DNA from: Corynebacterium confusum
GTDB taxonomy: Bacteria > Actinomycetota > Actinomycetes > Mycobacteriales > Mycobacteriaceae
Assembly (NCBI RefSeq): GCF_030408715.1
Contig: NZ_CP047202.1
Location: 1-64,000, forward strand
Direction: 5' to 3'
DNA length: 64,000 nt
The position numbers and the translations under genes were made by a program. The notes under the pieces were generated by a model. The model was not told the origin of the DNA. It saw only the letters and a program-made list of their open reading frames with translations, and made no database searches. This document shows positions 39,463-64,000 of the stretch, piece after piece; the first letter of the stretch is position 1, and each line of letters opens with the position of its first letter.

Positions 39463-39783
39463 ATGCCTAGGAAGCACTCCGTCGAGTTCAAGGAGAAGGC
39501 GGTCCATCAGATCATCGAAATGGTTCGCCTGGAGTCTTGCTCACTGCAACGCGCCTACACGGAGGTCGGTGAGCTGCTTGGAGTATCTCACCACACGTTG
39601 CGGGCTTGGTACCGTGACAGCGCTTCAGTACGTGATGACTCCGACGCGTCAGGCGGCGAAACAATGGAAGAAGAGATCAAGCGTCTGCGCCGCGAAAACC
39701 GTGAGCTGAAGCGAGCAAACGGGATTCTTAAGGCTGCTTCGGCTTTTTTCGCAGCGGAACTCGACCGACCCACGACCAAATGA
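39463..39783 (+). CDS. IS3-family transposase OrfA
   Basis: A 106-residue helix-turn-helix protein (MPRKHSVEFKEKAVHQIIEM...) with a C-terminal leucine-zipper-like coil (EEEIKRLRRENRELKRANGI). AAGGAAGG lies before ATG 39463. Its end overlaps OrfB by ATGA. A T6 run at 39746-39751 (GCTTTTTTC) is a plausible -1 slippage site for making the OrfAB transposase. Confidence 0.92.
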   Translation: MPRKHSVEFKEKAVHQIIEMVRLESCSLQRAYTEVGELLGVSHHTLRAWYRDSASVRDDSDASGGETMEEEIKRLRRENRELKRANGILKAASAFFAAELDRPTTK

Positions 39784-40688
39784 TCTCTTACATCGACACG
39801 TATAAAGATCAGTTTGGGGTCGAGGCCATCTGCCGAGTCCTTAAACAAGCAGATCGTGGATTCATTACTTCACGCGGCTACCGCAAAGCCACCACTCGTG
39901 TTCCCAGCGCAAGGGCCTTAAGCGATAGCCTTCTCATCCCAGAGATACAGCGTGTGCATGCGCAGAATTTCTCGGTCTACGGCATCCGCAAAATGTGGCA
40001 CGCGATGAACCGTGAAGGCTTTCATATTGGTCGCGACAAGACTGCACGACTGATGAAGCTAGCAGGTGTTTCTGGCCGCAGACGTGGGCGAACCCCAGTA
40101 ACAACGATCAGCCCGAAGACACCGGATCATCGCCCGGACCTTGTGCGCCGAAACTTCCGTGCGCAGGCACCAGGCAGGCTTTGGGTTGCCGACATTACCT
40201 ACGTTCGCACCCTGTCAGGATTCGCCTACACCGCGTTTGTCGTGGATGTCTACAGCCGAAAAATTGTTGGCGTTGCTACACGCTCGACGATGCGTACCGA
40301 TGCGCTGCCCATGGAGGCATTGGAACATGCGTTAACGACTGCAGGACGAATTCATGGAAACCAGTTAATTCACCATAGCGATCGGGGCAGCCAGTACGTG
40401 TCACTGAAGTATTCCACCGCGCTAGCGGAATCCGGAATCCGCCCGAGTGTGGGAACAGTCGGCGATTCTTACGACAATGCACTAGCCGAAACAGTCAACG
40501 GGCTCTACAAGGCTGAACTCATTCACGCCCAAGGCCCGTGGACTTCGGTCGGAGAAGTCGAACTGGCCACCTTGCGGTGGGTGCATTGGTGGAACACCAA
40601 GCGGCTTCATGAAGCTTTGGACTACGCCACCCCACAGGAAGTAGAAACCGAGTACTATCTCACCCAGCCCATCAACACAGGGCCGTAA
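39780..40688 (+). CDS. IS3-family transposase OrfB
   Basis: A 302-residue integrase-core protein with an HTH_21 part (VYGIRKMWHAMNREG) and the rve DDE triad: Asp in WVADITYVRT, Asp in IHHSDRGSQYVS, Glu in NALAETVNGLYKAELI. It is probably produced mainly as an OrfAB fusion by frameshifting. Confidence 0.94.
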   Translation: MISYIDTYKDQFGVEAICRVLKQADRGFITSRGYRKATTRVPSARALSDSLLIPEIQRVHAQNFSVYGIRKMWHAMNREGFHIGRDKTARLMKLAGVSGRRRGRTPVTTISPKTPDHRPDLVRRNFRAQAPGRLWVADITYVRTLSGFAYTAFVVDVYSRKIVGVATRSTMRTDALPMEALEHALTTAGRIHGNQLIHHSDRGSQYVSLKYSTALAESGIRPSVGTVGDSYDNALAETVNGLYKAELIHAQGPWTSVGEVELATLRWVHWWNTKRLHEALDYATPQEVETEYYLTQPINTGP

Positions 40689-43120: not shown

Positions 43121-44029
43121 TTACGGCCCTGTGTTGATGGGCTGGGTGAGATAGTACTCGGTTTCTACTTCCTGTGGGGTGGCGTAGTCCAAAGCTTCAT
43201 GAAGCCGCTTGGTGTTCCACCAATGCACCCACCGCAAGGTGGCCAGTTCGACTTCTCCGACCGAAGTCCACGGGCCTTGGGCGTGAATGAGTTCAGCCTT
43301 GTAGAGCCCGTTGACTGTTTCGGCTAGTGCATTGTCGTAAGAATCGCCGACTGTTCCCACACTCGGGCGGATTCCGGATTCCGCTAGCGCGGTGGAATAC
43401 TTCAGTGACACGTACTGGCTGCCCCGATCGCTATGGTGAATTAACTGGTTTCCATGAATTCGTCCTGCAGTCGTTAACGCATGTTCCAATGCCTCCATGG
43501 GCAGCGCATCGGTACGCATCGTCGAGCGTGTAGCAACGCCAACAATTTTTCGGCTGTAGACATCCACGACAAACGCGGTGTAGGCGAATCCTGACAGGGT
43601 GCGAACGTAGGTAATGTCGGCAACCCAAAGCCTGCCTGGTGCCTGCGCACGGAAGTTTCGGCGCACAAGGTCCGGGCGATGATCCGGTGTCTTCGGGCTG
43701 ATCGTTGTTACTGGGGTTCGCCCACGTCTGCGGCCAGAAACACCTGCTAGCTTCATCAGTCGTGCAGTCTTGTCGCGACCAATATGAAAGCCTTCACGGT
43801 TCATCGCGTGCCACATTTTGCGGATGCCGTAGACCGAGAAATTCTGCGCATGCACACGCTGTATCTCTGGGATGAGAAGGCTATCGCTTAAGGCCCTTGC
43901 GCTGGGAACACGAGTGGTGGCTTTGCGGTAGCCGCGTGAAGTAATGAATCCACGATCTGCTTGTTTAAGGACTCGGCAGATGGCCTCGACCCCAAACTGA
44001 TCTTTATACGTGTCGATGTAAGAGATCAT
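43121..44029 (-). CDS. IS3-family transposase OrfB (copy 2)
   Basis: A 302-residue integrase-core protein, identical to that of copy 1, with the complete DDE triad. Confidence 0.94.
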   Translation of the reverse strand: MISYIDTYKDQFGVEAICRVLKQADRGFITSRGYRKATTRVPSARALSDSLLIPEIQRVHAQNFSVYGIRKMWHAMNREGFHIGRDKTARLMKLAGVSGRRRGRTPVTTISPKTPDHRPDLVRRNFRAQAPGRLWVADITYVRTLSGFAYTAFVVDVYSRKIVGVATRSTMRTDALPMEALEHALTTAGRIHGNQLIHHSDRGSQYVSLKYSTALAESGIRPSVGTVGDSYDNALAETVNGLYKAELIHAQGPWTSVGEVELATLRWVHWWNTKRLHEALDYATPQEVETEYYLTQPINTGP

Positions 44030-50666: not shown

Positions 50667-52222
50667 ATGACCAATTCACCACAAGCTAAAAAATCCTCAC
50701 CCAACACCAATCATGACCACGAAGGCTTCGTGTTTCGGCTCATTCCCACCCCTCAGCAAGAAGCCCTGTTTGAGGAGATGACACGGGCAGCACACTGGGG
50801 GTTCAACGCATTCACCGAAGCCTGGCAGAAGTACGACGAAAACTACCGGGCAAGAAAAGATCAGCTCCTGGCTGCCGGCGTGAACGCCAGCAGCGTGAAC
50901 AAGCTGATCAAAAAAGAGGCCGAAACCAACCCAGCACTAAAAAACCGCACCGTTTTTCATTTGAGACAGATGTTTTAACTCCCGAAATCCGGCGTCACCG
51001 GGAGGCAGCAAAACTGCTGTGGCAACGAGACCACGGGAAACGATGGTCACCTCAACACCAAGAACGGCTTGATGCTGTCTGGAGTCCCGATACCAAGGGC
51101 GCCCGCCCCTTTCTCCATCTCGTCAACCGTCGCTGCCCCGTCAGTGGAATCAAAAACGCAGCCGAGGCCATGAAAAACTACTACGCCAGTAAAACTGGTC
51201 GAAGAAAAGGCCGGGCTATGGGAAAACCCCAGCGCAAGACCCACCGATCTCGGAAATCAGTCACCATTCACCCAGACAGCAGAATGGGGCCAAAAGGCTG
51301 CCCTCCACCCCGAGGGCAGCCCCAGATCACCGGGTACAAGCATCTATACCTGGCCAATCTTTTCTCGCATGCCTCCAAGCCGGATAAAAAAGACCGGATA
51401 TTGCGCGTACGCGTCCATGGCTCCACCAGACGGTTGGTCAAAGCTCTGCAGAACCACCCTGACGCCAAAATCAGCAATTTTACGATCTCCCAAAAAGGCG
51501 GCTACTGGTACGTCGCTGTGATGGTTAAGTCAGCTCAACGCCAACCATCGCTAACCCGACGGCAAAAACAAGCAGACACCCTGGGCATCGATATCGGCAT
51601 CCACAACTACCTATCGCTCTCGGATGGCTCCACAGTCATCCAGCTTCCACCACTGCTCCAGCGCAACATCAAACGATCGAAAAACCTACGTAAAAAGCTG
51701 GCCCGGAGCCAAAAGGGATCCAACCGCCGTCGAAAGCTCATCGCCACGATCAAACGCGTCGACCACGAGCTGAAGTTGCAGCGCGATGGGTTTGTTCATC
51801 AGATCACCGCCGAACTGGCCCGCAACTATGCCCTGATCGGCATCGAAGACCTCAATGTTAAAGGCATGACTCGTTCAGCCAGGGGAACCGTAGACGCACC
51901 GGGAACAAACGTGAGGGCGAAATCATCCCTCAACCGCCGAATGCTTGAGGGGATCCCTGGCGAGTTTCGTCGCCAGCTGGAGTACAAAACCAAGCGCACC
52001 GGCGCTGCTCTAGAGGTCATCGACCGGTTTTACCCATCCTCCAAAACCTGCTCGAGGTGTGGTTGGAAAAACGAGAATCTTTCCCTGAGTAACCGTCAAT
52101 TCACATGTCTAGAATGCGGCCTATCACTCGACCGGGACCACAACGCCGCATTGAACATCGCAGCTGAGGCCGAAAGGAAACACCTGAAAGACACTAAGTC
52201 ACCCAAACCCAGCCACGACTAA
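50667..52222 (+). pseudogene. TnpB-family RNA-guided nuclease gene with a single frameshift
   Basis: Frame 1 (50667-50978) ends in ...NRTVFHLRQMF. The frame that continues homology (FETDVLTPEIRRHREAAKLLWQRD...) reads through to 52222. One extra T in the T5 run at 50954-50958 would join them into a 518-residue protein. The C-terminal part has the RuvC-like nuclease: Asp in GIDIGIHNYLSL, Glu in LIGIEDLNVKGM, the zinc ribbon CSRCG...CLECG and Asp in LDRDHNAALNI. No transposase gene (tnpA) is adjacent. It may be a true frameshift, a programmed one, or a homopolymer sequencing error. Confidence 0.85.
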
Positions 52223-52454: not shown

Positions 52455-53153
52455 TTACCCCCATACCTTGGGCGACGGTCTGTCGTCCCGCACTTCGGGA
52501 AGTCTGGAGTTAGCGACTATCCACTCCGCCGCAGAGGGATCAATCCAGGTAGACAGCTTCTCTATAGCCTGCTGCGCTCGATCGAGGTTATCGTTTTCGT
52601 CCTGCAGGTCCTTTTTGATAATCGGCTCATGATGGGCGCACCGGTTACGCAGGTTGTAGACCACACCAACTTCACTTCTGAACTCGTCAAGGCTGGGAAC
52701 AAGGACATCAGGCTTGCTTCCGCCAGTGGCAGGTGCCTGTGTGCCGACCAAATCTTTACGAACCAGCGGCCAGAGAGTAGAGGCGTAGGTTTTGGTGAAC
52801 AGGTAGGCCCAGAAATCGAAGCTGAGTTCAGCGATAACCCGCCCCGGCGGTGGGGCTTGCTCTCTTCGTGTGCAGGCACGGCGTTCTGCTTTTTTAATGG
52901 CTCTCTCGGCCGGTTTTTCGAAGGGGATGGCCGGGTGGGTGTACCACCTGGGTCCGTAGCGCGGAGCGACGGCGGCGTCTACGCAGTTTCGTAGCAGCAC
53001 CTCGACATGTTGGAGGTCCTCCAGGAAGGCCTTGGTGACGCGCGTGTTCCAGAGGTAGAGGGATTCAGGATCTGGGTGGTGGGCATAGGTGCTCATCCGC
53101 GCAGGTGAGAACCACTTGTCAAGATTGATCGTCAGATTTTCGTTGGAATTCAT
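52455..53153 (-). CDS. Abi-family (abortive infection, HEPN) protein
   Basis: The 232-residue protein matches the Abi_2/AbiD-AbiF group: N-terminal WFSPARMSTYAHHP, RVTKAFLEDLQHVEVLLRN near 36-55, and the HEPN RNase motif Rx4-6H in VYNLRNRCAHHEPII near 185. The family aborts phage infection, probably by cutting RNA. The gene is alone, about 120 bp from the end of the tnpB element and beside the IS1249-type element, so it was carried in with mobile DNA. Its own regulation is not visible. Confidence 0.82.
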   Translation of the reverse strand: MNSNENLTINLDKWFSPARMSTYAHHPDPESLYLWNTRVTKAFLEDLQHVEVLLRNCVDAAVAPRYGPRWYTHPAIPFEKPAERAIKKAERRACTRREQAPPPGRVIAELSFDFWAYLFTKTYASTLWPLVRKDLVGTQAPATGGSKPDVLVPSLDEFRSEVGVVYNLRNRCAHHEPIIKKDLQDENDNLDRAQQAIEKLSTWIDPSAAEWIVANSRLPEVRDDRPSPKVWG

Positions 53154-53272: not shown

Positions 53273-54652
53273 GGGTTAAGTAAAGAAAAGTGTGTCTTTT
53301 CCGGGCGTGTTGCGGTTATTTGATCCAGCCTTTTTGGATGCCGAGGTTGTGTTGGTAGCTGGTGTCGATGGCGGTGTCGTATTCTGCTGGTGCACCGATG
53401 TCATTGGTAGTGGCTGTGGTGTTGTGGGTGATCAGGTCTGTTGCTGTGGAAAGTGCGTCTTGACCCCATCGTTGGTCCCTGGCGATCTTGACCGGATCGT
53501 CAGGGACTTCTGTATGTAGATACAGCCACCAATCCATCACTGTGCGTTGATGCGGTAGTGATAGTCCGCGGTGTCTGCGGGCTAGTTCTTTTATGGGGGC
53601 GTTGATGCCACCTTCGAGGCTGTTTGTTGTTGCTGCAAGGTTGTCGGGGTCGATGGTTGTTGGTGGGGGTTGCAGGTAGGTAAACAGCAGGTCTCTGCGG
53701 TGCAGAGATAGCAATGATTGATAGGCCGCTCGGACGCGTTGGTGGGTGTAGACCTTGGTGTAGGCGCCGGTAGCAGGGTCTTTGATGGTGGTTTTCTCGT
53801 TCATCCATTCCCGGTAGGTGTGGTCGAATTCGTGCAGGTGGGCGACCCATGTGGATGCTTGGTCAAGGTCGGTGATGCGAGTGAGTTTCAGGGCTAGGCG
53901 GTAGAGGGTTTTGCCGGCATCGGTGCGGGGGTTGCTGGTGGTGTGGCGGCGGACTGTTCGTTGGGCGTGGACGAGGCAGCGTTGGATGCGTGTTGTTGGC
54001 CAGCAGTGGTGGATGGCTGATTGGGCACCTTGTCCGCCGTCTGTGACTGCGATTAGTGGTGCGGCAATGGGGCGTAGGAGTTCGGTGTAGGCGGCGGTGG
54101 TTTCGTGTCTGGCCCAGGTCCAGTTGATGACGTGGGTTTTACTGGCTGCGATCAGGAGGCATCCGGACTTTAGATAGGTCGCGTCGAGGAAGATTTGGTC
54201 ATGGATGCGGAATGAGTCGATGGTGGGTGTGGGGATGATCCACCAGCACCATCGGAATCGGTGGTGCATGGTTTGCCTGGTTACGCCATGGTGTGCGGCG
54301 AAGGTGGTTAGAGATTGGGTGCCGGTGGCCCATTGGATGAACAAAGCCATGGTGGCGGTATTTTTGTTGTGGGTTTGGGTGTTGCGGGTAAAGGAGTGTC
54401 CGCAGTGGGTGCAGCGCCAACGGGTGGTTGATTTGCTGGTGGTGCCGTTTTTCTTTGTGTTGTTGCCGCATAGTGGGCAGCTGGGGCGGTTGGTGGTCAT
54501 CCTTTAATCCAACCGGTGTGCGGTTAGCACAAATGTGGCCGGAGGTGCGGGATGGTGTGGGTAATAGCTTTCGGGGAGCTATTCTTTGGTGATTTGTGGT
54601 GTGTGGTCTGGGGTTATGGTGGCATGCGGACACACTTTTCTTTACTTAACCC
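53273..54652 (-). mobile_element. IS1249-type insertion sequence (1380 bp)
   Basis: A perfect 24-bp terminal inverted repeat starts GGGTTAAGTAAAGAAAAGTG (53273-53296 and 54629-54652). It encloses one intact transposase gene. The flanking 8-bp sequences differ, so no target duplication is left; a deletion or recombination may have occurred next to it. Confidence 0.88.
53316..54500 (-). CDS. IS1249-family transposase
   Basis: A 394-residue transposase with an N-terminal zinc ribbon (CPLCG...CTHCG), a helix-turn-helix (TFAAHHGVTRQTMHHRF), and a mutator-like DDE core: Asp in FLDATYLKSG, Asp in AVTDGGQGAQSA, Glu in TTNSLEGGINAPIKEL. This type was first described in Corynebacterium. The frame is intact. 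Confidence 0.9.
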   Translation of the reverse strand: MTTNRPSCPLCGNNTKKNGTTSKSTTRWRCTHCGHSFTRNTQTHNKNTATMALFIQWATGTQSLTTFAAHHGVTRQTMHHRFRWCWWIIPTPTIDSFRIHDQIFLDATYLKSGCLLIAASKTHVINWTWARHETTAAYTELLRPIAAPLIAVTDGGQGAQSAIHHCWPTTRIQRCLVHAQRTVRRHTTSNPRTDAGKTLYRLALKLTRITDLDQASTWVAHLHEFDHTYREWMNEKTTIKDPATGAYTKVYTHQRVRAAYQSLLSLHRRDLLFTYLQPPPTTIDPDNLAATTNSLEGGINAPIKELARRHRGLSLPHQRTVMDWWLYLHTEVPDDPVKIARDQRWGQDALSTATDLITHNTTATTNDIGAPAEYDTAIDTSYQHNLGIQKGWIK

Positions 54653-54666
54653 TCAAAAGCTGCATA

Positions 54667-54685
54667 TTAGGTTATGCTAAGTTAA
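54667..54685. promoter_or_regulatory. DtxR-type iron box upstream of mbtH
   Basis: TTAGGTTATGCTAAGTTAA matches 15 of 19 positions of the DtxR consensus TTAGGTTAGCCTAACCTAA. It lies about 85 bp before mbtH and predicts repression in iron-replete cells. Confidence 0.75.
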
Positions 54686-54771
54686 TTCACGCTTGCTGCA
54701 CTTGTGCCACCACTTTGGCCAACGCAGCCCATAAACCCGTTATTTCCGCATCATGAGACAAGGAGCGCGTG

Positions 54772-54999
54772 TTGTCTAGCAACCCGTTTGATGACGAACA
54801 GGGCAGCTTCTTCGCCCTTATCAACGACGAGGGACAGTACTCGTTGTGGCCTACGTTCGCCGCCGTGCCAGACGGATGGACCGTGGCTCTGGGAGACCCT
54901 TCCCGTGGCGTAGACGGCGGGGTATCGCGGGACGAGGCGATGGAGTTCATCGACCGCGAGTGGACCACCTTGCAACCGGCAGGAAAGTCTCACGCTTAA
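54772..54999 (+). CDS. mbtH: MbtH-like protein
   Basis: MbtH proteins bind adenylation domains of NRPSs and are needed for their activity or solubility. The product of about 75 residues has the family signature: NPFDDEQGSFFALINDEGQYSLWP, VPDGWTVALG and the C-terminal EAMEFIDREWTTLQP. TTG 54772 was chosen because AAGGAG (54760-54765) is 6 bp before it; GTG 54769 is only 3 bp away. Its TAA is followed directly by the GTG of the first ABC gene. It is the partner of the NRPS at 60136. Confidence 0.95.
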   Translation: MSSNPFDDEQGSFFALINDEGQYSLWPTFAAVPDGWTVALGDPSRGVDGGVSRDEAMEFIDREWTTLQPAGKSHA

Positions 55000-56817
55000 G
55001 TGAGTGCCGTACTTCCCACTGCTTTGCCTGGTGAGTCCGCTGCGGAGATTGGCCGCCTGCTCCGTCGCACCGCAACTCCAGCAATTAGTGCGGTGCTGTT
55101 CACTTTCGCCGGTGCCTTGCTCTCTCTGGTGCCCATTTATCTGCTGGCCAGCGTCATCGATGCGGTAGCCGCCGGTGACGGCAAGTCTGGCGTGCTGAAG
55201 GTGATTGTGTGGGCTGCCGTGGCGTGTGTTGGTACTGCCGTTGTCGCTGGCCTTGCGGAGGCGCTGACGGGTGTGACGATTGCCCAGGTAGTTGCGAAGT
55301 TGCGTGAGCGCGCCGTCGCCGCGGTGCTGAATCTGCCTTCCACCACGGTGGAGTCCCTGGGCCGGGGAGAGGTGCTGGGCCGAGTTGGTGCGGATGTCGC
55401 CGCGCTGGTGAGCAGTGCCCGCAAGTCGGTTCCATCGACCCTCAGCGCGCTGGTGATGGTCGTGGTGGCCAGCGCTGGAATAGCGGGGTTGGATTGGCGC
55501 CTCGCGTTGGCGGGGCTGTGCGGGATTCCGTTCTATGCGCTGGGGTTGCGATGGTATCTTCCTCGTTCTGCCCCTTTGTATCGACGCCAACGCGAATTAG
55601 AAGCCGGTGTCATCGGTTCCTTGCAAGGTTCTATGGAGGGCATTCGTTCGGTTCGTTCGCATCGGCTGGTGGATAGCCGCCAAGGTCTCACCAGGCGCTA
55701 CGCGCAGGCTTCGCGGGACGAATCAATCGCTGCGTTTCGTGTGTTTTCCGGGCTGGTGGCGCGGGAGAACTTCGCGGAGTTCATGGGGTTGTCAGCCCTG
55801 TCTGTCGTAGGCTGGTTGCTCTTCCGCGAAGATGCGGTGACGGTGGGCGAGATCTCGGCAGCGTTGATTCTGTTCCACCGTCAGTTCGTGCCGATCGGCA
55901 CGATTCTGTTCACCTTTGATGAACTGCAGCGCAGCGGGGCGGCCTTGGGGCGCATCGTGGGACTCATTCGCTCCGCGGGTGCGGATACGCCACAGCCGAT
56001 TGATGACTACTCCTCGCATCGGCAGAGTCCAGCTGTAGAGGTCAAGGGCCTGAATTATCGGTACGAGGATGGCCCAGAGATCTTGCATGACTTGGCGTTC
56101 CGCATCCCTGCGGGGTGCACGGTATGCGTGGTCGGCGGATCGGGAGCTGGCAAGTCCACGGTTGCGGAAATTGTCTCTGGAACCCTCGAGATGGCAGAGC
56201 CGGGTGTGATCACCGTTGGGGGGTGCGACGTGGTGGGAATGAGTGCGCAAGAAAGAAGCTCGATCTTTTGCGTTGCCTCCCAGGAAAACTACGTCTTCGC
56301 GATGAGTTTGCGCGATAATCTCCTGCTGGCAGCCGAAGGTGCCAGCGACGCAGAAATATGGGATGCGCTGCGCCGAACCGGTGCGGAAGATTGGTGCACA
56401 TCCTTGTCCCATGGCGACAAGCAGGGCTTAGACACAATGCTGGGCGAAGGGGGCCTGCACGTAGATGCGGTGGCGGCACAGCGTCTGGCGCTGGCCAGGG
56501 TGGCATTGTCTCGGGCTGGCGTCGTCATTCTTGACGAATCAACGGCCGAAGATGACGGTGACCTCGAGGAAACACAGCAATCACACGAGGCCTTTTCGAT
56601 GTCCTTGGAGGACGCTGCCCGCGCGGCGATCCGCGGACGGACGGCGATGGTGATTGCGCACCGGCTCAGCCAAGCAACCTCCGCCGATAGCGTGGTGGTG
56701 ATGGAGCGCGGGCGCGTGGTGGAAACAGGTACGCACGAGGAGCTGGCAGCAAGAAACGGAACATATGCCGATATGTGGACCGCCTGGAATGAGCAGGGGA
56801 GGCAGGCGCGTGTCTGA
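55000..56817 (+). CDS. ABC exporter half-transporter 1 (degenerate signature motif)
   Basis: A 605-residue half-transporter: six-helix ABC membrane domain (about 20-305), then an ATPase domain. Walker A GGSGAGKST (near 380) and Walker B VVILDEST (near 510) are intact, but the LSGGQ signature is replaced by HVDAVAAQRLALARV. It must pair with the next subunit, which has the opposite defects. In siderophore loci such pairs export the siderophore or import the ferri-siderophore; with mbtH upstream and NRPS downstream, siderophore transport is likely. GTG 55000 follows the mbtH stop without a gap. Confidence 0.88.
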   Translation: MSAVLPTALPGESAAEIGRLLRRTATPAISAVLFTFAGALLSLVPIYLLASVIDAVAAGDGKSGVLKVIVWAAVACVGTAVVAGLAEALTGVTIAQVVAKLRERAVAAVLNLPSTTVESLGRGEVLGRVGADVAALVSSARKSVPSTLSALVMVVVASAGIAGLDWRLALAGLCGIPFYALGLRWYLPRSAPLYRRQRELEAGVIGSLQGSMEGIRSVRSHRLVDSRQGLTRRYAQASRDESIAAFRVFSGLVARENFAEFMGLSALSVVGWLLFREDAVTVGEISAALILFHRQFVPIGTILFTFDELQRSGAALGRIVGLIRSAGADTPQPIDDYSSHRQSPAVEVKGLNYRYEDGPEILHDLAFRIPAGCTVCVVGGSGAGKSTVAEIVSGTLEMAEPGVITVGGCDVVGMSAQERSSIFCVASQENYVFAMSLRDNLLLAAEGASDAEIWDALRRTGAEDWCTSLSHGDKQGLDTMLGEGGLHVDAVAAQRLALARVALSRAGVVILDESTAEDDGDLEETQQSHEAFSMSLEDAARAAIRGRTAMVIAHRLSQATSADSVVVMERGRVVETGTHEELAARNGTYADMWTAWNEQGRQARV

Positions 56818-58537
56818 CAACAAGGTGGTGACGCTGCGCGGGCTGGTCAGAAAAAATTCTCGCGCGATGGCTCTGAGTGGCTTGTTGCTGAGCATCTACC
56901 ACGTGGCAGAAGCCATGATTGCGGTGTTACTGGGATGGTTGGCGCACAGTCTTATCGCTAGCGAGAATGTGTGGCACCTGGTGGGTGGAATCGCAGCCTT
57001 AGGCGCTACGCTGGCGACGGTGTCTGTGAGCTGGCAGACAGGGTTCCGGATACTGCAGGCTACGTCGGCTCGGAACGTATGTGAATTGCGGGCAGGCATC
57101 ACCTCGCAGGTGGTGAGCCATGGTGGGCATTCCGACGATGCGGACAGTCTGCCTCGCCAGGAATTGCCCACGGTGGTGGGTGAAGACGTGGTGCAGGCGG
57201 TAGACATCATCGAAGTGGTCCCGGTGGGGATCAGTGCGCTGGTGGGAGCCATTTTCTGCACGATTGTTCTGGCGCTGATTGATCTGCCACTGGGAGTGGT
57301 GGTGTTGGTGCTCAGCGCGGTGGTGTTGATAGTCCTGCACCGGCTGTCTCAGATCATTGAACGCCGCGCGGAGCGGCAACAAACTCTGCTCGCGCGAGTG
57401 ACCGCGCGCATGACCGACATTCTGCAGGGGCTGCCGGTGATCTCGGGAGTGGCTGGCGCGCATCCGGCCTACCGTGGATATGCGCGTAAATCTGAAGAGG
57501 CGTGTGCGGATGCTCGGAAGCTCGCGTGGGTCAGCGGAGGTTATGAAGCCGTGGCGATGGGCAGCAATGTGCTGTTGCTGAGTGCGGTGGGCCTGTACGC
57601 GGGCTATCGAACCATTTCCGGCGATGTGACGTTGGGGGAGTTGGTCACCGTGGTGGCGCTGTCACAATTTATCGCGGAGCCGATGCGGCAGTGCAGCAGA
57701 ATGCCGCGCTTCATTGGATTGGCGAGGGCTTCCGTTCGGAGGCTGCAGCGCGTGGCGGAAGCTCAGCGGCTGCGTGAGGGGCAGGGCGTGCCATCTGCTC
57801 AGATTGGCACGCCTGCCATTTCCATGCGCGGTGGAGACGGTGAGGCCGAAGGAGACGGCGAGGTCGAGGGATCAGAGCAGGCTTCCGTGGCGTTCGCAGA
57901 GGGGCGACTGACGGTGGTGCACTGTTCAGCCGCATGGGCAGATGCTCTGGTGGATGCGTTGGTCGCGGGGGAGTCGATGGAGCTTGGCTCCCTGACTAGG
58001 CCACAAACTCAACAACTGTGGATCCGGGGGCGCGATATTTGCGAGATCTCGGTAGACGATGTGCGTTCCGCTGTGCTTGCCGAGCCTCGGAAGCCGGCAT
58101 TGTTTGGGGACACAGTGGGGCAGGCGGTGCTGCGGAGCTCTGGAGAGGGCAGGGCGGAGGATGCAGTAGACATTCTTAACGCCTTAGGGCTCGATGAACT
58201 GGCGCCGGGGGCGGCTCATTCAGCCGGGGTATTGGATCACGAGCTGACCGAAGGTGCGCGCAATCTTTCCGGTGGTCAGCGGCAGCGGCTGGGATTGGCA
58301 CGAGCGCTACTGGCTGAGCCGGAGATGTTGGTGATGGTTGATCCGGTCTCGTCAGTGGATTCAATGACGGGCATGAAAGTGGCGCGTGCGGTGAGAGATA
58401 TTCGCCGCGGGCGTACCACGGTGGTCCTGTGTGTGGGGAGGGCCTTCCAGTCGGTAGCCGAGGACGTAGTTGATGTGAAGCCTCTAGCTGGGAGTTTGCG
58501 GACGCGGGGTGAGCAATTCCCGCTAGGGGGTTGTTGA
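56810..58537 (+). CDS. ABC exporter half-transporter 2 (no Walker A, intact signature)
   Basis: A 575-residue half-transporter starting at GTG 56810, 8 bp inside the previous gene, with AGGGGAGG before it. The membrane domain (about 15-310) is normal. The Walker A region reads EGRLTVVHCSAAWADAL with no GxxGxGK, and Walker B reads LVMVDPVSSVD, with Pro where the catalytic Glu should be. The signature LSGGQRQRLGLARALL is perfect. With subunit 1, exactly one complete ATP site can form (Walker A/B of subunit 1 plus signature of subunit 2). This is an obligate heterodimer. Confidence 0.88.
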   Translation: MSDNKVVTLRGLVRKNSRAMALSGLLLSIYHVAEAMIAVLLGWLAHSLIASENVWHLVGGIAALGATLATVSVSWQTGFRILQATSARNVCELRAGITSQVVSHGGHSDDADSLPRQELPTVVGEDVVQAVDIIEVVPVGISALVGAIFCTIVLALIDLPLGVVVLVLSAVVLIVLHRLSQIIERRAERQQTLLARVTARMTDILQGLPVISGVAGAHPAYRGYARKSEEACADARKLAWVSGGYEAVAMGSNVLLLSAVGLYAGYRTISGDVTLGELVTVVALSQFIAEPMRQCSRMPRFIGLARASVRRLQRVAEAQRLREGQGVPSAQIGTPAISMRGGDGEAEGDGEVEGSEQASVAFAEGRLTVVHCSAAWADALVDALVAGESMELGSLTRPQTQQLWIRGRDICEISVDDVRSAVLAEPRKPALFGDTVGQAVLRSSGEGRAEDAVDILNALGLDELAPGAAHSAGVLDHELTEGARNLSGGQRQRLGLARALLAEPEMLVMVDPVSSVDSMTGMKVARAVRDIRRGRTTVVLCVGRAFQSVAEDVVDVKPLAGSLRTRGEQFPLGGC

Positions 58538-58547
58538 GCAATAGAAG

Positions 58548-58566
58548 ATAGGTTAGCCTACCCTTT
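58548..58566. promoter_or_regulatory. DtxR-type iron box upstream of the monooxygenase gene
   Basis: ATAGGTTAGCCTACCCTTT matches 15 of 19 positions of the DtxR consensus, with a fully matching central TAGGTTAGCCTA. It lies about 50 bp before the monooxygenase start. Confidence 0.78.
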
Positions 58567-58616
58567 GCATTGTCTACCCTAAGAAGTTGGTTGGCGCATC
58601 CTACAGAGAGGCCATA

Positions 58617-60035
58617 GTGACCATCATCGATCGTCAAGCTCAGACATCCGCAGAGCGCAGTACCCACGAAAATTCCGTCCGCGACATCGTCGGGATCGGC
58701 ATCGGCCCCGGAAACCTCGGGCTCGCGGTAGCTATCGAAGAGCAAGCTCCAGAACTCGATGCACTCTTTGTGGAAGCCCGCCCGGAATTCAACTGGCACC
58801 CAGGCATGCTCCTCGAAGGATCCAACATGCAGATCAGCTTCCTTAAAGACCTGGTTACGGTGCGCAATCCGCAGAGCCGCTTCAGCTTCATCAACTACTT
58901 GCATCACAGCGACCGCTTGATTGATTTCATTAACCGCCAAACCTTCACCCCGGAACGCGTGGAATTCGCCGATTACCTCCGATGGATCGCGGATCACATC
59001 ACCGTGGACACGCAGTACAACACCACCGTGACGTCCATCGAGACGCTTCCGGAACTGGCCGCAGACGGAGCTCGTTTTGTGGTGCACGTCCGCAGGAAGT
59101 TAGGAAGCGGTGAGTCCGAAGGGCAGCGAGCTCAGCAGTCGGAGTCCATTCGCTGCCGCAACGTGGTGGTTGCCCGCGGGCTGGAAGCCAAGATGCCTGC
59201 GTGGGCAGAGGACAGCTCCTTGGACACCTCGCGCATCTTCCACAACATCGATTTGCTCCCGCGCACCAAGAAGCTGCTGAACAGTGGGTGGGATATCCGC
59301 CGAGCTTTGGTGATCGGCGCGGGCCAGTCCGCAGCCGAGGCCATCCGGTACTTCCACGATTGCCCGCATATCGATACCGTCACGGGCAGCTTGAACAGCT
59401 ACGGCTTCATCCCCGCCGATGACAGCCCCTTCGCCAATCGGGTGTTCGACCCGGAGGCCGTTGATGACTTCTTCCATGCGCCCGATGCGATCCGCAACGA
59501 GCTGTTGATCCGCCACCGGTACACCAATTACGCCTGCGTGGAATCTGAGCTCCTCGATGAGCTCCACGACCGTCAGTATCGGGAAAGCGTCACCGGGCGT
59601 CAGCGGCTCGATATTCGCCGGACCACGGAGGTGCTCGGTGCGCGTAATTGTTCCGACGGCAGCGTCGACGTGGACATTCGCCACCGAGTAACCGGAGACG
59701 TGGTGACAGAAAACTTTGACGTGGTGGTGTGCGCCACGGGCTTCCGATCTCGCGGTCTTGCGGGGATTCACGCTGATAGTCACGGCAGTGAAGAATTCAC
59801 CGTCACTAGGGATTACGGCGCCGTGCTCAATGGCGAGCGCGTGCCAGGACTCTTCGTGCAGGGAGCAACTGAGGCCACGCATGGACTCGGTTCCACGTTG
59901 CTCTCCAACATCGCGACCCGCTCCGGGGAACTGGTGGAGGCCATCACGGGTCAGCAACGCACGCATCGTGCGCCGGCGGATGAAGATCTCCGCTCCGAGC
60001 AACATCGGGATTCTTCGCACCTGATCGCAGGCTGA
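58617..60035 (+). CDS. N-hydroxylating monooxygenase, probably L-ornithine N5-monooxygenase
   Basis: The flavoprotein hydroxylates the side-chain amine of ornithine (or lysine), the first step of hydroxamate siderophore synthesis. The 472-residue protein has the FAD motif GIGIGPGNLGLA near 25, WHPGMLLEGSNMQISFLKDLVTVRNP near 60-85, the NADPH motif VIGAGQSAAEAI near 235 and VVVCATGFRS near 372. Start GTG 58617 has AGAGAGG before it. Ornithine is preferred over lysine by inference from the NRPS A-domain code. The formyltransferase expected from that code is not in the window. Confidence 0.92.
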   Translation: MTIIDRQAQTSAERSTHENSVRDIVGIGIGPGNLGLAVAIEEQAPELDALFVEARPEFNWHPGMLLEGSNMQISFLKDLVTVRNPQSRFSFINYLHHSDRLIDFINRQTFTPERVEFADYLRWIADHITVDTQYNTTVTSIETLPELAADGARFVVHVRRKLGSGESEGQRAQQSESIRCRNVVVARGLEAKMPAWAEDSSLDTSRIFHNIDLLPRTKKLLNSGWDIRRALVIGAGQSAAEAIRYFHDCPHIDTVTGSLNSYGFIPADDSPFANRVFDPEAVDDFFHAPDAIRNELLIRHRYTNYACVESELLDELHDRQYRESVTGRQRLDIRRTTEVLGARNCSDGSVDVDIRHRVTGDVVTENFDVVVCATGFRSRGLAGIHADSHGSEEFTVTRDYGAVLNGERVPGLFVQGATEATHGLGSTLLSNIATRSGELVEAITGQQRTHRAPADEDLRSEQHRDSSHLIAG

Positions 60036-60135: not shown

Positions 60136-63100
60136 GTGCCCACCCGATCGTCTGCTCACACTCCGTTTTCCTCTGGCGATACGCTTGCTTCTCGAGATGG
60201 CGGCGCCGTCATCGGTCATGGCCGCAGTGAACAGGATCGGATCGCCCAGCAGCGCATATGGAATGACACGGATCAGGATCGCGATCGCCCGGACCTGATT
60301 AGCCTGCTCCTGCAGCATGCGCAGGAGACCCCGGATGCGCTCGCAGTGGTGGATGACCGGCACAGACTGACCTATGCGCAGCTCGTCGCCCATGCAACTG
60401 CTGTAGCGCGAAATTTGCGGGAACACGGTATTGACGCTGGTCAGAGTGTGGGAATCTCCCTGCCGCGCAGCGCGGAGATGGTGGTGGGTATCGTCGCCAC
60501 GTTGCTCGCCGGTGGCAGTTTTGTCCCGCTAGACCCCTCGTGGCCGCAGGCGCGCCGGGAATCCGTCACCCACGATGCCAGCCTGAGCTTCGTACTCACG
60601 CCGGACAACTGCGCGCTCACCGAAGACGCGCTATTCGACCTCGATGCCACCCGCGAGCTGTTCACCCCGCCGTCCACGGACAGCGTTGCGTACGTCATCT
60701 TTACCTCTGGCAGCACCGGCCGCCCAAAGGGCGCAATGATCCGCCACGGTGCGATCGTGGAGCGCTTGCTCTGGCAGCGCGATCAGATCCTGTTCTTCGG
60801 CCGCGATGATGCCTCCCTGTTCAAGGCACCGCTGGCCTTTGATATCTCCATCAATGAGATCTTCCTGCCGCTGGTTTGCGGGGGCCGCGTGGTGGTGGCC
60901 GCGCCGGGCGTGGAGCAAGACCCCCAACGCTTGGCCCGCCTCATCCATCGCGAGGGCGTGACGTTTGCGTATCTGGTTTCGAGTGTTCTCGACGTCATGC
61001 TCAAACAGGCCGAAGGCACGAATCTATTAGACAGCTTGCGGCATGTCTGGTGTGGCGGAGAGATGCTCACCCAGGCGCTGTTCCGTCGCTTTCGCCAGCA
61101 GCTGGCCATCCCGCTGTACCACGGGTACGGGCCAGCGGAAGCTACCATCGGTGTCTCCCACGTCATCTACCGTGACGACGAGGATCGCCTCAACACGAGC
61201 ATCGGTGTGGCCAATCCCAACTGTCGGCTCTATGTGCTCGATGAGCACCTGCGGGTGGTTCCAGACCAAGAAATTGGTGAACTCTATGTGGCCGGATTCC
61301 TGCTGGCCAAGGGGTATATCAATGCCCCAGGACTCACGGCCAGCCGCTTTGTTGCGGATGTGTTTGCGTCGGACGGAACCCGGATGTACCGCACGGGAGA
61401 CCTGGTGCGCCGGCACAACGACGGCTCGCTGGAATTCGTGGGGCGGGCCGATAATCAGGTGAAAATCCGTGGCATGCGTCTGGAGTTGGAGGACGTGGAA
61501 TCTGCGCTGGTGGGACACCCAGATGTGGAGGCGGCGAGCGTGATTGCTCGGGAGGGGCGACTGCTGGGCTACGTGACGGTGACTGCGGGCCTCGTGGGTG
61601 CTGCGATCCGTAGTTGGTGTGCCGAGGTACTGCCCGAATACATGGTGCCCGCGATTATCACCGTCATGGATGAGTTGCCGCGGACGGCCAACGGAAAAGT
61701 GGATCGGAAGGCACTGCCGGAACCTGATTGGAGCTCGCTCACTGATGCCCCGGCCGATGCTGAACGTGACGGGGAAACCGTTGCTCTGCTCGCGGAGGCA
61801 ATGGCTGAAGCATTGGGGGTTAGCGCGGTGGGTGCGGAGACGGACTTCTTCGATATCGGTGGCGATAGCCTGCGGGCCATCACCCTGGTCTCGGCTCTGG
61901 GACGGCGCGGGGTGGAGGTGAGTGTGGGAGATATTTTCTCTGCGCGCACTCCACAGCAACTGGCTCGGTGCGCCGAAGAGCGCGGAACCTTCGTGCAGGA
62001 TCCAGACGATGAACCAACCGGTGAGGTGCAGTCGCTGCCGATTCTGCGCTGGTTCGATTCCATTACTGATCACGTGGACGGCTTCATTCAGTCCGTGGAG
62101 TTTTCAGTTCCAGAAGATGTGGATGCGCAGCTGGCCGGGCGAATGGTGGCTGACGTGCTGCAGGCGCACCCTGCACTGCGGGCCCGTGTGCAGCGGAATC
62201 CCTTGCGGCTGGAACTCCCGGAGGAATCTGCCGAAGAAGCGGTGGCGATCCACCCCACCACGGACATCGCTGCGCTTTCTGAACTGCTGGATCCGGCAGT
62301 CGGAGTGGTGGTAGCGGCTGGGCTGGTGCCCGGAAGATTGCGCCTTGTGGTGCATCACCTGGTGGTCGATGGCGTGTCATGGAACATTATCGGCGAGGAC
62401 CTCGCCGCGGCGTATCGCGGGGAACAGCTCGCGCCGGAGCGGACGTCCCTGCGCCGATGGACGCAGCTGCTGCAACAGGCCGTTGATACTGGCGAATTCG
62501 CGGAGGATGCCAATAGTTCCCTGCCCCCATTGCCGAGTGCAGATGAACCTCTGCGGGACCCGCAGGTGCCAGCGCTTGCTGATAGTCCCGAGAAAGCGCC
62601 CACAGTCCGTGAGGAGCGCAGCGTGGTACATGAGGCATCAGTGCAGATCACGGACGAATTACTGGGTGCGGTGCCCCACGCTTTCCGCACGGGGGCGAAT
62701 TCCGTATTGCTTACGGCATTGAGCGTGGCGTTGGCGCGTTGGCGTCGAAACAAACAAACATGGACCCTGGTGGAGATGGAGGGGCACGGCCGCGAAACCC
62801 GATTCGTACCCGGGCCACAGGGCAGGGAAGCAGACCTTTCACGCACGGTGGGCTGGTTCACCTGCCTATATCCCATGCTGATCGACCCCACCCGGGCGGC
62901 AGTGCAGGAGGCCTCCACAGAGGTCGAGGGCAGCATCGCCCCGCTAGCGCTGGCACTCAACGCAGTGAAAGACCAGCTCGCGGCCATCCCCGGCAACGGC
63001 GTTCCTTACCAGGCCCACACCTGGTTGCATCAGTCCGCGAAGACCCCTCCGCAGGCACAGGTGCTGTTCAACTACTTGGGGCGCGTATCCGCAGGAGCAC

Positions 63101-64000
63101 AAGATTTCGCTCCCGCGGGTTCCACCGGCCAACTCGGCGAGCAACGCGACCCGGACCAGCCGTTGGTCCGCGAGCTGGAGTTCAACGCGATCGCCGAAGA
63201 CACCGGCGAGGGATACGTCCTGCGCACCACGATCTCCTGGGCGCGCGGCAGGATCTCCCCCGAACGGATCGACGAATTGGTCGCGCACTGGGATGTGGCA
63301 TTGCGCGAGGTGGCAGCGCTTGCCGATCACGGCGTGTTGTCCGTGGGCGACGTTGCCCCCGCACCCGTGAACTCTGCGGACCTGGCACGAATCACTGCGC
63401 AGAGCTCCGCGGAGCTGCAGGACGTGCTGCCGCTGACCCCGCTGCAGCACGGCATGTACTTCCACTCGCTATTCGAGGAATCGGCCAGCTCGTATGTGGA
63501 GCAACAGGTCTTGCGGGTGGAATGCAGCGAACCGTTTGACCGGGAGCGATTCGCCCGCGCTGCGCGTAATTTGATCCGACGCCACCCCGCACTGAGCACC
63601 CGCCCTTGGGAAACTGACGGTGGCGATGTGGTTGCCGTGATTGATCCGGGGATTGCCGAGCATTTGCGGGTGGACTTTCGGGACGTGACGGTGCCTGCCG
63701 AGTTGGCTGGGCCTGGATTAGACGGGTGGCTCGTGCAGCGTACGGAAGAGATTGCCGCTGATGACCTCTCGCGGGGAATCTCCTTGCAGCCGCCCGGTGA
63801 TGCCGCGCCCGAGCCGCTCATGCGATGGACCGTTGTGCTCCCGACCAGTGTCGATGGTGCGGTGTGTGGCCAGGACATCGCCGTGATCCAGACGGTGCAT
63901 CACCTGATCGCCGACGGATGGTCCGTGCCCATCATGCTGCGGGATCTCCTGGAGATCTACCGGGATGACGATGCCCGAATCCCGCGCTACGACCCGGACG
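60136..64000 (+). CDS. Non-ribosomal peptide synthetase, 5' part (A-T-E-C...), siderophore type
   Basis: The frame opens at GTG 60136 (AAAGG 60124-60128 upstream) and is still open at the window end, residue 1288. It begins directly with an adenylation domain (FTSGSTGRPKGA near 188, FDISINE near 235, YHGYGPAEATIGV near 330, YRTGDL, NGKVDRK), then a carrier domain (FFDIGGDSLRA, Ser near 578), an epimerisation domain (HHLVVDGVSW near 740, FNYLGR near 980) and a condensation domain (LPLTPLQHGMYFHS near 1098, HHLIADGWS near 1255). The code read by alignment to GrsA is DINYWGGIGK, known for N5-formyl-N5-hydroxyornithine. The first residue would be converted to the D form, as in coelichelin. Confidence 0.95.
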   Translation, partial: MPTRSSAHTPFSSGDTLASRDGGAVIGHGRSEQDRIAQQRIWNDTDQDRDRPDLISLLLQHAQETPDALAVVDDRHRLTYAQLVAHATAVARNLREHGIDAGQSVGISLPRSAEMVVGIVATLLAGGSFVPLDPSWPQARRESVTHDASLSFVLTPDNCALTEDALFDLDATRELFTPPSTDSVAYVIFTSGSTGRPKGAMIRHGAIVERLLWQRDQILFFGRDDASLFKAPLAFDISINEIFLPLVCGGRVVVAAPGVEQDPQRLARLIHREGVTFAYLVSSVLDVMLKQAEGTNLLDSLRHVWCGGEMLTQALFRRFRQQLAIPLYHGYGPAEATIGVSHVIYRDDEDRLNTSIGVANPNCRLYVLDEHLRVVPDQEIGELYVAGFLLAKGYINAPGLTASRFVADVFASDGTRMYRTGDLVRRHNDGSLEFVGRADNQVKIRGMRLELEDVESALVGHPDVEAASVIAREGRLLGYVTVTAGLVGAAIRSWCAEVLPEYMVPAIITVMDELPRTANGKVDRKALPEPDWSSLTDAPADAERDGETVALLAEAMAEALGVSAVGAETDFFDIGGDSLRAITLVSALGRRGVEVSVGDIFSARTPQQLARCAEERGTFVQDPDDEPTGEVQSLPILRWFDSITDHVDGFIQSVEFSVPEDVDAQLAGRMVADVLQAHPALRARVQRNPLRLELPEESAEEAVAIHPTTDIAALSELLDPAVGVVVAAGLVPGRLRLVVHHLVVDGVSWNIIGEDLAAAYRGEQLAPERTSLRRWTQLLQQAVDTGEFAEDANSSLPPLPSADEPLRDPQVPALADSPEKAPTVREERSVVHEASVQITDELLGAVPHAFRTGANSVLLTALSVALARWRRNKQTWTLVEMEGHGRETRFVPGPQGREADLSRTVGWFTCLYPMLIDPTRAAVQEASTEVEGSIAPLALALNAVKDQLAAIPGNGVPYQAHTWLHQSAKTPPQAQVLFNYLGRVSAGAQDFAPAGSTGQLGEQRDPDQPLVRELEFNAIAEDTGEGYVLRTTISWARGRISPERIDELVAHWDVALREVAALADHGVLSVGDVAPAPVNSADLARITAQSSAELQDVLPLTPLQHGMYFHSLFEESASSYVEQQVLRVECSEPFDRERFARAARNLIRRHPALSTRPWETDGGDVVAVIDPGIAEHLRVDFRDVTVPAELAGPGLDGWLVQRTEEIAADDLSRGISLQPPGDAAPEPLMRWTVVLPTSVDGAVCGQDIAVIQTVHHLIADGWSVPIMLRDLLEIYRDDDARIPRYDPD

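Follow-up and report, generated by a model that had tools for sequence, protein, structure and literature searches.

Among the biosynthetic systems that have been described, the coelichelin gene cluster (cchA-K) of Streptomyces coelicolor and Streptomyces ambofaciens is the closest to the locus considered here, which lies at the end of the first 64,000 nucleotides of contig C1 (NZ_CP047202.1) of the 2.49 Mb genome of Corynebacterium confusum. This stretch (C1:1-64000) is referred to as the window, and the locus is organized around a gene for a nonribosomal peptide synthetase (NRPS) that begins inside the window and runs on past its end; positions beyond 64000 keep the numbering of C1. In the coelichelin pathway, the assembly line CchH is composed of three modules for formyl-hydroxyornithine, threonine, and hydroxyornithine; it has epimerisation (E) domains in the first two, lacks a thioesterase, and is accompanied by cchJ as a separate gene (PMC9854754).

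Related clusters have also been described within Corynebacterium. A coelichelin-like metallophore region, similar to the S. coelicolor cluster, is reported to occur commonly in C. striatum (PMC10486106), in an account whose accessible part, unlike the present analysis, holds no module, code, or mobility analysis. The NRPS siderophore gene family GCF-50, delineated with lsaBGC, was described as highly conserved across divergent Corynebacterium and flanked by mobile elements, with recent horizontal gene transfer proposed among skin corynebacteria and with the C. jeikeium K411 cluster cited (Tauch 2005), whereas its accessible text mentions neither a product class nor a composite transposon, and neither target duplications nor ribosomal passengers (PMC10210951). 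The present cluster shares the conservation, mobile flanks, and recent transfer of GCF-50, and we infer from its description, not from sequences, that the two are the same. The accessible parts of two surveys (PMC12188740, PMC12542688) are without such detail on the cluster. In Tn5432 (IS1249-erm(X)-IS1249), a related type of insertion sequence (IS) brackets cargo in Corynebacterium (PMC8304765), whereas here the cargo is a siderophore cluster and the IS is IS3503. An earlier interpretation of the window, made from its letters without database searches (the sequence-only reading), had stated that no such product was known from Corynebacterium; this stood for the isolated compound, as no report of coelichelin isolated from the genus was found in the literature searched, whose coverage was partial, and did not stand for the cluster, which had already been predicted in print (PMC10486106, PMC10210951). 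The cluster and its spread are thus already partly in print, and it is the transposon structure and the passenger ribosomal genes that are detailed further here.

The locus is considered, with a probability of about 0.85, to be a complete, probably iron-regulated coelichelin-type siderophore cluster on a mobile segment, and the likely product, as predicted from the genes, is coelichelin itself or a compound close to it. Clusters of this kind are known and had been predicted in the genus before, and with the full pathway present the case is stronger than the sequence-only reading stated.

The NRPS frame opened at 60136 stays open through the window end at 64000. Pfam stretches and motifs place its domains in the order A-T-E-C-A-T-E-C-A-T (A, adenylation; T, carrier; C, condensation), with three AMP-binding, four condensation-type, and three carrier (PF00550) stretches, and the motifs follow as T GGDSL, E HHLVVDGVSW, C HHLIADGWS, T GGDSI, E HHAVIDSASW, C YHLVLVDGWSR, and T GGHSM. 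No condensation-type stretch (PF00668) was detected ahead of the first A domain, and no thioesterase domain appears in the Pfam listing of the whole 3,618-aa protein. The NRPS therefore resembles CchH in having three modules, of which the first two contain E domains, and in lacking a thioesterase (PMC9854754). The A-T-E-C start without an N-terminal C domain, as well as the neighbouring N-monooxygenase, MbtH, and ABC exporter genes, had been noticed in the sequence-only reading and were borne out by these stretches, motifs, and family matches.

The specificity codes of the A domains were read by motif anchors on MAFFT alignments, with anchors and GrsA position numbers that we assumed to be the standard ones, giving DINYWGGIGK for A1, DFWSIGMVHK for A2, and DM(E/W)NLGLINK for A3, in which position 239 is W or E according to the placement of a one-residue gap. 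The A1 code is the same as originally read and holds on alignment to relatives and to a solved structure, the second adenylation domain of the linear gramicidin synthetase LgrA (9be3): no gap falls in the stretches containing the pocket residues from 235 to 331, and one single-residue gap is placed between 301 and 322, several residues from both. We take this code to be of the N5-formyl-N5-hydroxyornithine type and those of the later modules to be of the threonine and hydroxyornithine types, an assignment of substrates that we presume. The later modules are consistent with a hydroxamate peptide, and their types match the substrates given for CchH (PMC9854754). The codes given for N5-formyl-N5-hydroxyornithine in Burkholderia differ from DINYWGGIGK (PMC4786211), so the latter is not universal for this substrate; a text search of the literature matched no paper to the code string itself.

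To locate comparable clusters in Streptomyces, the A1 domain was used as a query against 121 genomes of the genus to which S. seoulensis A01 belongs. The A1 stretch was matched at 1e-60 in 118 of them, and among the matches listed 22 showed 65-68% identity, followed by a group at 57-59%; the open frames that contain them measure 3,643-3,804 aa for 21 of these 22, and the frame of the remaining one measures 2,251 aa. Three of the 22 closest loci (G320, G255, and G311) were compared in detail, and each holds counterparts of 11 of the 12 cluster proteins queried, all but the DedA-type membrane protein. Their gene order is formyltransferase, monooxygenase, two permeases, ATPase, binding protein, exporter, NRPS, exporter, esterase, and MbtH, which we take to be the cchA-K order; the gene functions shared with cchA-K presumably number 11. 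The NRPS aligns with the three Streptomyces NRPSs over the full length, the A1 and A3 codes are the same, and the A2 code there, DFWNIGMVHK, is one residue off. An unusual third condensation motif, YHLxLxDGWSR, occurs here and in five of five relatives checked, and in all three Streptomyces clusters it reads YHLLLWDGWSR, the same departure from HHxxxDG. Unlike cchA-K, the cluster described here has a rearranged gene order and strands, and it sits on an IS-bounded mobile segment. Three Streptomyces-type loci picked by formyltransferase (L115, L088, and L063) were rejected as larger NRPS systems with other codes.

The accessory genes are listed in Table 1. The formyltransferase, which the sequence-only reading expected past 64000, was found there, CchA-like and inside the cluster, and it retains the Asn-x-His and Asp residues aligned to ArnA. 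Together with the A1 code and the later modules, it supports the prediction of a hydroxamate siderophore with a starter module of the N5-formyl-N5-hydroxyornithine type. An esterase, an MbtH-like protein, two ABC exporter half-transporters, a binding protein, and a FecCD-ATPase importer are also present, and the genome holds two genes of the phosphopantetheinyl transferase family. The esterase had no match among solved structures at 1e-5. Since the frame of half-transporter 2 overlaps the preceding gene, its actual start probably lies a little downstream of 56765. The DedA-type gene is present in C. dentalis (G036), and no counterpart was found in G089 or the three Streptomyces clusters.

Table 1. 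Features of the cluster and its mobile segment (C1 numbering, except where L006 is named)
Feature	Position	Strand	Remarks
Three-module NRPS (CchH-like)	60136-64000 in window, stop at 70992	+	3,618 aa
Adenylation domain 1	60313-61698	+	code DINYWGGIGK
Carrier domain 1	61846-61872	+	serine motif FFDIGGDSL
Epimerisation domain 1	62065-63330	+	PF00668 stretch, HHLVVDGVSW
Condensation domain of module 2	63418-64000, runs on to 64716	+	PF00668 stretch, HHLIADGWS
MbtH-like protein (CchK counterpart)	54769-54999	+	PF03621, 75.5 bits; 46-52% vs three Streptomyces clusters
ABC exporter half-transporter 1 (CchG-like)	55000-56817	+	PF00664, PF00005; 42-43% vs Streptomyces counterparts
ABC exporter half-transporter 2 (CchI-like)	56765-58537	+	PF00664, PF00005; 32-34% vs Streptomyces counterparts
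Amino acid N-monooxygenase (CchB-like; predicted L-ornithine N5-hydroxylase)	58587-60035	+	PF13434, 325 bits; 38-39% vs Streptomyces
Esterase	70995-71999	-	PF00756; enterochelin-esterase model 71 bits, under cut-off 222
Formyltransferase (CchA-like)	72059-73003	+	PF00551, PF02911; ~1 kb past NRPS
Siderophore-binding lipoprotein	73069-74085	+	PF01497
DedA-type membrane protein	74259-74897		named by eye; between binding-protein and importer genes
Importer ATPase	74908-75744	-	PF00005
FecCD permeases (two)	75741-76835, 76835-77953	-	PF01032
DtxR-like box	54667-54685	+	before mbtH-exporters; 3 mismatches to TWAGGTWAGSCTWACCTWA
DtxR-like box	58548-58566	+	before monooxygenase-NRPS; 3 mismatches
DtxR-like box	72030		between divergent esterase and formyltransferase genes
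DtxR-like box	78011		before importer genes
IS3503 (IS256-type), 1380 bp	53273-54652		transposase 53316-54500 (-); left bracket of mobile unit
rpsH-rplF-rplR-rpsE, second copies	78484-80519 (L006 484-2519)		open frames on mobile segment
IS6-family element	80936-81779		right edge of own segment; NF033587, 261.1 bits vs 125
IS3-like transposase copies	39780-40688, 43121-44029; L006 4833-5741, 7842-8750

Several points weigh against the coelichelin-type assignment, including two, on the integrity of the copies, that are given with the spread of the cluster. The NRPS is only 41% identical to the Streptomyces NRPSs, and the comparison clusters come from three Streptomyces genomes that do not include S. 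coelicolor CchH itself. The fourth residue of coelichelin is not readable from the modules; this extra residue is taken here to be a second formyl-hydroxyornithine, gained by re-use of module 1. One account gives it as threonine (PMC9854754). The A2 code has Ser where the three Streptomyces A2 domains and one corynebacterial version, that of G021, have Asn. In addition, the solved structure nearest to the monooxygenase is that of the lysine enzyme MbtG, with the ornithine enzymes KtzI and an L-ornithine 5-monooxygenase coming after it.

The A2 difference bears on the possibility, rather unlikely in our estimation, that the product is an analogue made by the same assembly logic, with serine or another residue in the middle position, or a tripeptide without the extra formyl-hydroxyornithine. 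Such variation has a parallel in a Renibacterium metagenome-assembled genome (L150 / L059), where the middle code DVWVFGMVNK is combined with the same first and last codes, indicating that the middle position varies among such synthetases. On the other hand, nine of the ten A2 residues equal those of the three Streptomyces A2 domains, Ser is usual at this site in the corynebacterial versions read (own, P0030, P0066, G036, and G089), though G021 has Asn, and the gene set and module order are otherwise unchanged with respect to Streptomyces. The Renibacterium synthetase has three modules, with an esterase, a monooxygenase, and a formyltransferase nearby, and its product may be a relative of coelichelin that differs in the middle residue. 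The version in G021 (L043-L044) is more distant, with an NRPS frame of 4,493 aa, a formyltransferase at 75-76%, and the codes DINYWGGIGK / DFWNVGMVH- / DM(W/E)NLGLIN-.

With MbtG as the nearest solved relative, the prediction that the monooxygenase acts on ornithine depends on the A codes and the gene company. Hydroxylation of lysine, leading to a lysine-based hydroxamate like mycobactin, would agree with that relationship but is highly improbable given the formyltransferase and the ornithine-type A codes, the two ornithine enzymes that come next in the structure list, and the lack of any polyketide synthase or salicylate gene among the NRPS and the ten other cluster proteins scanned.

In the coelichelin-type pathway that is favoured here, the monooxygenase would N5-hydroxylate ornithine, and the formyltransferase would N5-formylate part of the hydroxyornithine. 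Module 1 would load and epimerise N5-formyl-N5-hydroxyornithine, module 2 would add and epimerise threonine, and module 3 would add N5-hydroxyornithine, while re-use of module 1, which we presume by analogy with coelichelin, would supply a further formyl-hydroxyornithine. The peptide would be released without a thioesterase domain, the esterase helping, and exported by the two half-transporters, and the predicted uptake route would return the ferric complex through the binding protein and the FecCD/ATPase importer.

The whole pathway may be under DtxR control. One DtxR-like box stands ahead of each presumed transcription unit, four in all, in a search that allowed up to 3 mismatches to TWAGGTWAGSCTWACCTWA, which we take to be the DtxR consensus; all four boxes sit at that full 3. 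The number expected by shuffling is 0.01 in the window, where two were seen, 0.00 in L005, and 0.02 in L006, where 4 of 200 shuffles reach one box, and no further box was found in the 92 kb scanned (window, L005, and L006). The cluster is thus probably controlled by iron through DtxR, judging from these boxes.

The left bracket of the mobile segment is IS3503, whose transposase belongs to the IS1249 family (NCBIfam NF033544, 509.9 bits against a cut-off of 300). The element has 24-bp inverted ends and is 100% identical over 1380 bp to one annotated as IS3503 family on the C. jeikeium plasmid NC_003490. The same IS end with the same adjoining cargo was observed in the own genome and in G183, G080, G149, G222, and G238, with G081 (C. 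jeikeium Cj47444) collinear there, and G149 shares with the window a further 1.4 kb of left flank, from 51873, at 99.9%. In G183, the IS-cluster-IS unit is flanked on both sides by a perfect 8-bp duplication, GCACCTCC, its right IS copy is interrupted, and the unit also contains ~2.9 kb of other DNA. An empty-site search, conducted for G183, found the joined flanks uninterrupted in G156 (97%, 300/300 bases) and G122 (87%, 291/300). The unit of G080 is likewise flanked on both sides by a perfect 8-bp duplication, GGAAGTGC, and its left IS copy is interrupted by ~9 kb. The IS copies are direct in both genomes, one of the two being interrupted in each, and the G081 contig carries direct IS copies at both ends. 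Among the carriers, a target duplication around the whole unit was seen in G183 and G080, and composite transposition is shown for these two relatives. Because the own genome has the left IS3503 alone, with an IS6-family element on the right, we infer composite transposition in the ancestry of the window's copy.

Several other mobile features were recorded. The insertion locus of G183 is broken in the C. confusum genome (C1 464298-466009) by other DNA of ~1.4 kb, and the two matches overlap by 8 bases, so this locus may have served as a target repeatedly. Within 47 kb there are four copies of an rve-type (IS3-like) transposase of 302 aa that look identical by eye, and a gene resembling IS605 OrfB / TnpB occupies two frames at 50667-52222 (helix-turn-helix part 50667-50978, catalytic part 51170-52222), adjoined by an Abi-like gene at 52455-53153.

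The spread of the cluster was examined in 242 Corynebacterium genomes, own included, of which 159 gave a formyltransferase match at 1e-20. The matches listed are mostly at 26-34% identity, the level at which methionyl-tRNA formyltransferase is expected, with four at 38-39%; matches of at least 75% over the full length occur in 15 genomes, own included. Broken or partial formyltransferase remnants in G241 (C1 1810995-1811741) and G132 (C2 241753-242197) suggest that the cluster was lost in some species. When the region was compared at the DNA level with 16 other Corynebacterium genomes, six shared 21-26 kb at 99.94-99.98%, two shared ~9 kb on short contigs at 99.96-99.98%, and three shared 19.5-20.9 kb at 99.58-99.71%, with the gyrB genes of these 11 near-identical carriers only 77-84% identical to that of the window. 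Beyond these, identity is 91-95% for the region of G036 and 77% for the ~2 kb of the cluster that is matched in G089; G241 and G132 match in pieces only, and G021 gave no DNA match. At the protein level, G089 has the whole cluster without DedA (55-87%, NRPS 70%) and G021 has part of it. The whole NRPS gene is matched at ≥93% in 10 of 241 other genomes, nine of them at 99-100%. The cluster has recently moved between several species almost unaltered, on at least two occasions through composite transposition bounded by IS3503. A plasmid collection, which may omit records very near the own genome, yielded three records with short NRPS scraps only and, at the sensitivity of this search, no plasmid carrier.

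Copies in other genomes also bear on whether the cluster is silent or decaying, as mere mobile cargo, which is improbable. All 12 cluster genes are intact in seven of 12 relatives (G183, G081, G222, G238, G080, G149, and G227), contig ends cut the cluster in three more (G085, C. kefirresidentii SB; G159, HMSC036D02; and G155, HMSC078H07), G036, aligned in part in this check, has an open NRPS frame at 93%, and the DtxR-like boxes are present. Decay would be favoured by the NRPS frame of G157 (HMSC27B11), which is broken, be it real or an assembly error, by the formyltransferase pieces of G241 and G132, and by the 50 codons that differ between the own copy and G183, 23 of them synonymous and 27 residue-changing. 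Since these differences are not mainly synonymous, the near-identical copies show no sign of purifying selection over so short a time. Against G036, 220 of 297 differing codons are synonymous and 77 residue-changing, with the NRPS left out and the ribosomal genes included.

The mobile segment also carries second copies of rpsH, rplF, rplR, and rpsE; rpsH is found in the genome both at 78490 and at 422000. The island copies are 77.7% identical to the native DNA, and their proteins are 76-82% identical to the native ones. The stretch recurs at ~100% in G159, G238 (BWA136), and G155, the next whole copies are those of G036 (92%) and of G227, G157, and G228 (89%), and rpsH with part of rplF remains in G081, G085, and G149. 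Gene by gene, the stretch is a mosaic, with rpsH (99%) and rplF (98%) like G036, rpsE (99%) like G227, and rplR ~91% like both, and the simplest reading would place the donor close to the C. dentalis / G227 lineage. The right ends of the segment vary among carriers from 78010 to 80935, which fits with trimming of passenger DNA. It is an evenly balanced proposition that the IS3503-bounded siderophore transposon arose beside the spc ribosomal-protein operon in a C. dentalis / G227 relative and is now an interchangeable, DtxR-wired coelichelin module among corynebacteria, dragging along open foreign S8, L6, L18, and S5 genes and leaving the longest carriers partly diploid for ribosomal proteins. 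No mention of passenger ribosomal genes was found in the literature searched, with partial coverage, and the composite transposon with its target duplications, together with these foreign passengers, constitutes the most informative addition of this analysis.

Many of the carriers presumably come from people, as their strain names suggest, and on the skin and in the nose iron is a main point of competition. If confirmed, the movement of an entire siderophore pathway as one transposable unit would account for patchy siderophore production, and the distinction between producers and mere users would become testable. The passenger ribosomal genes mark the donor lineage and the sequence of transfers, and the predicted product belongs to a known, purifiable class of compounds.

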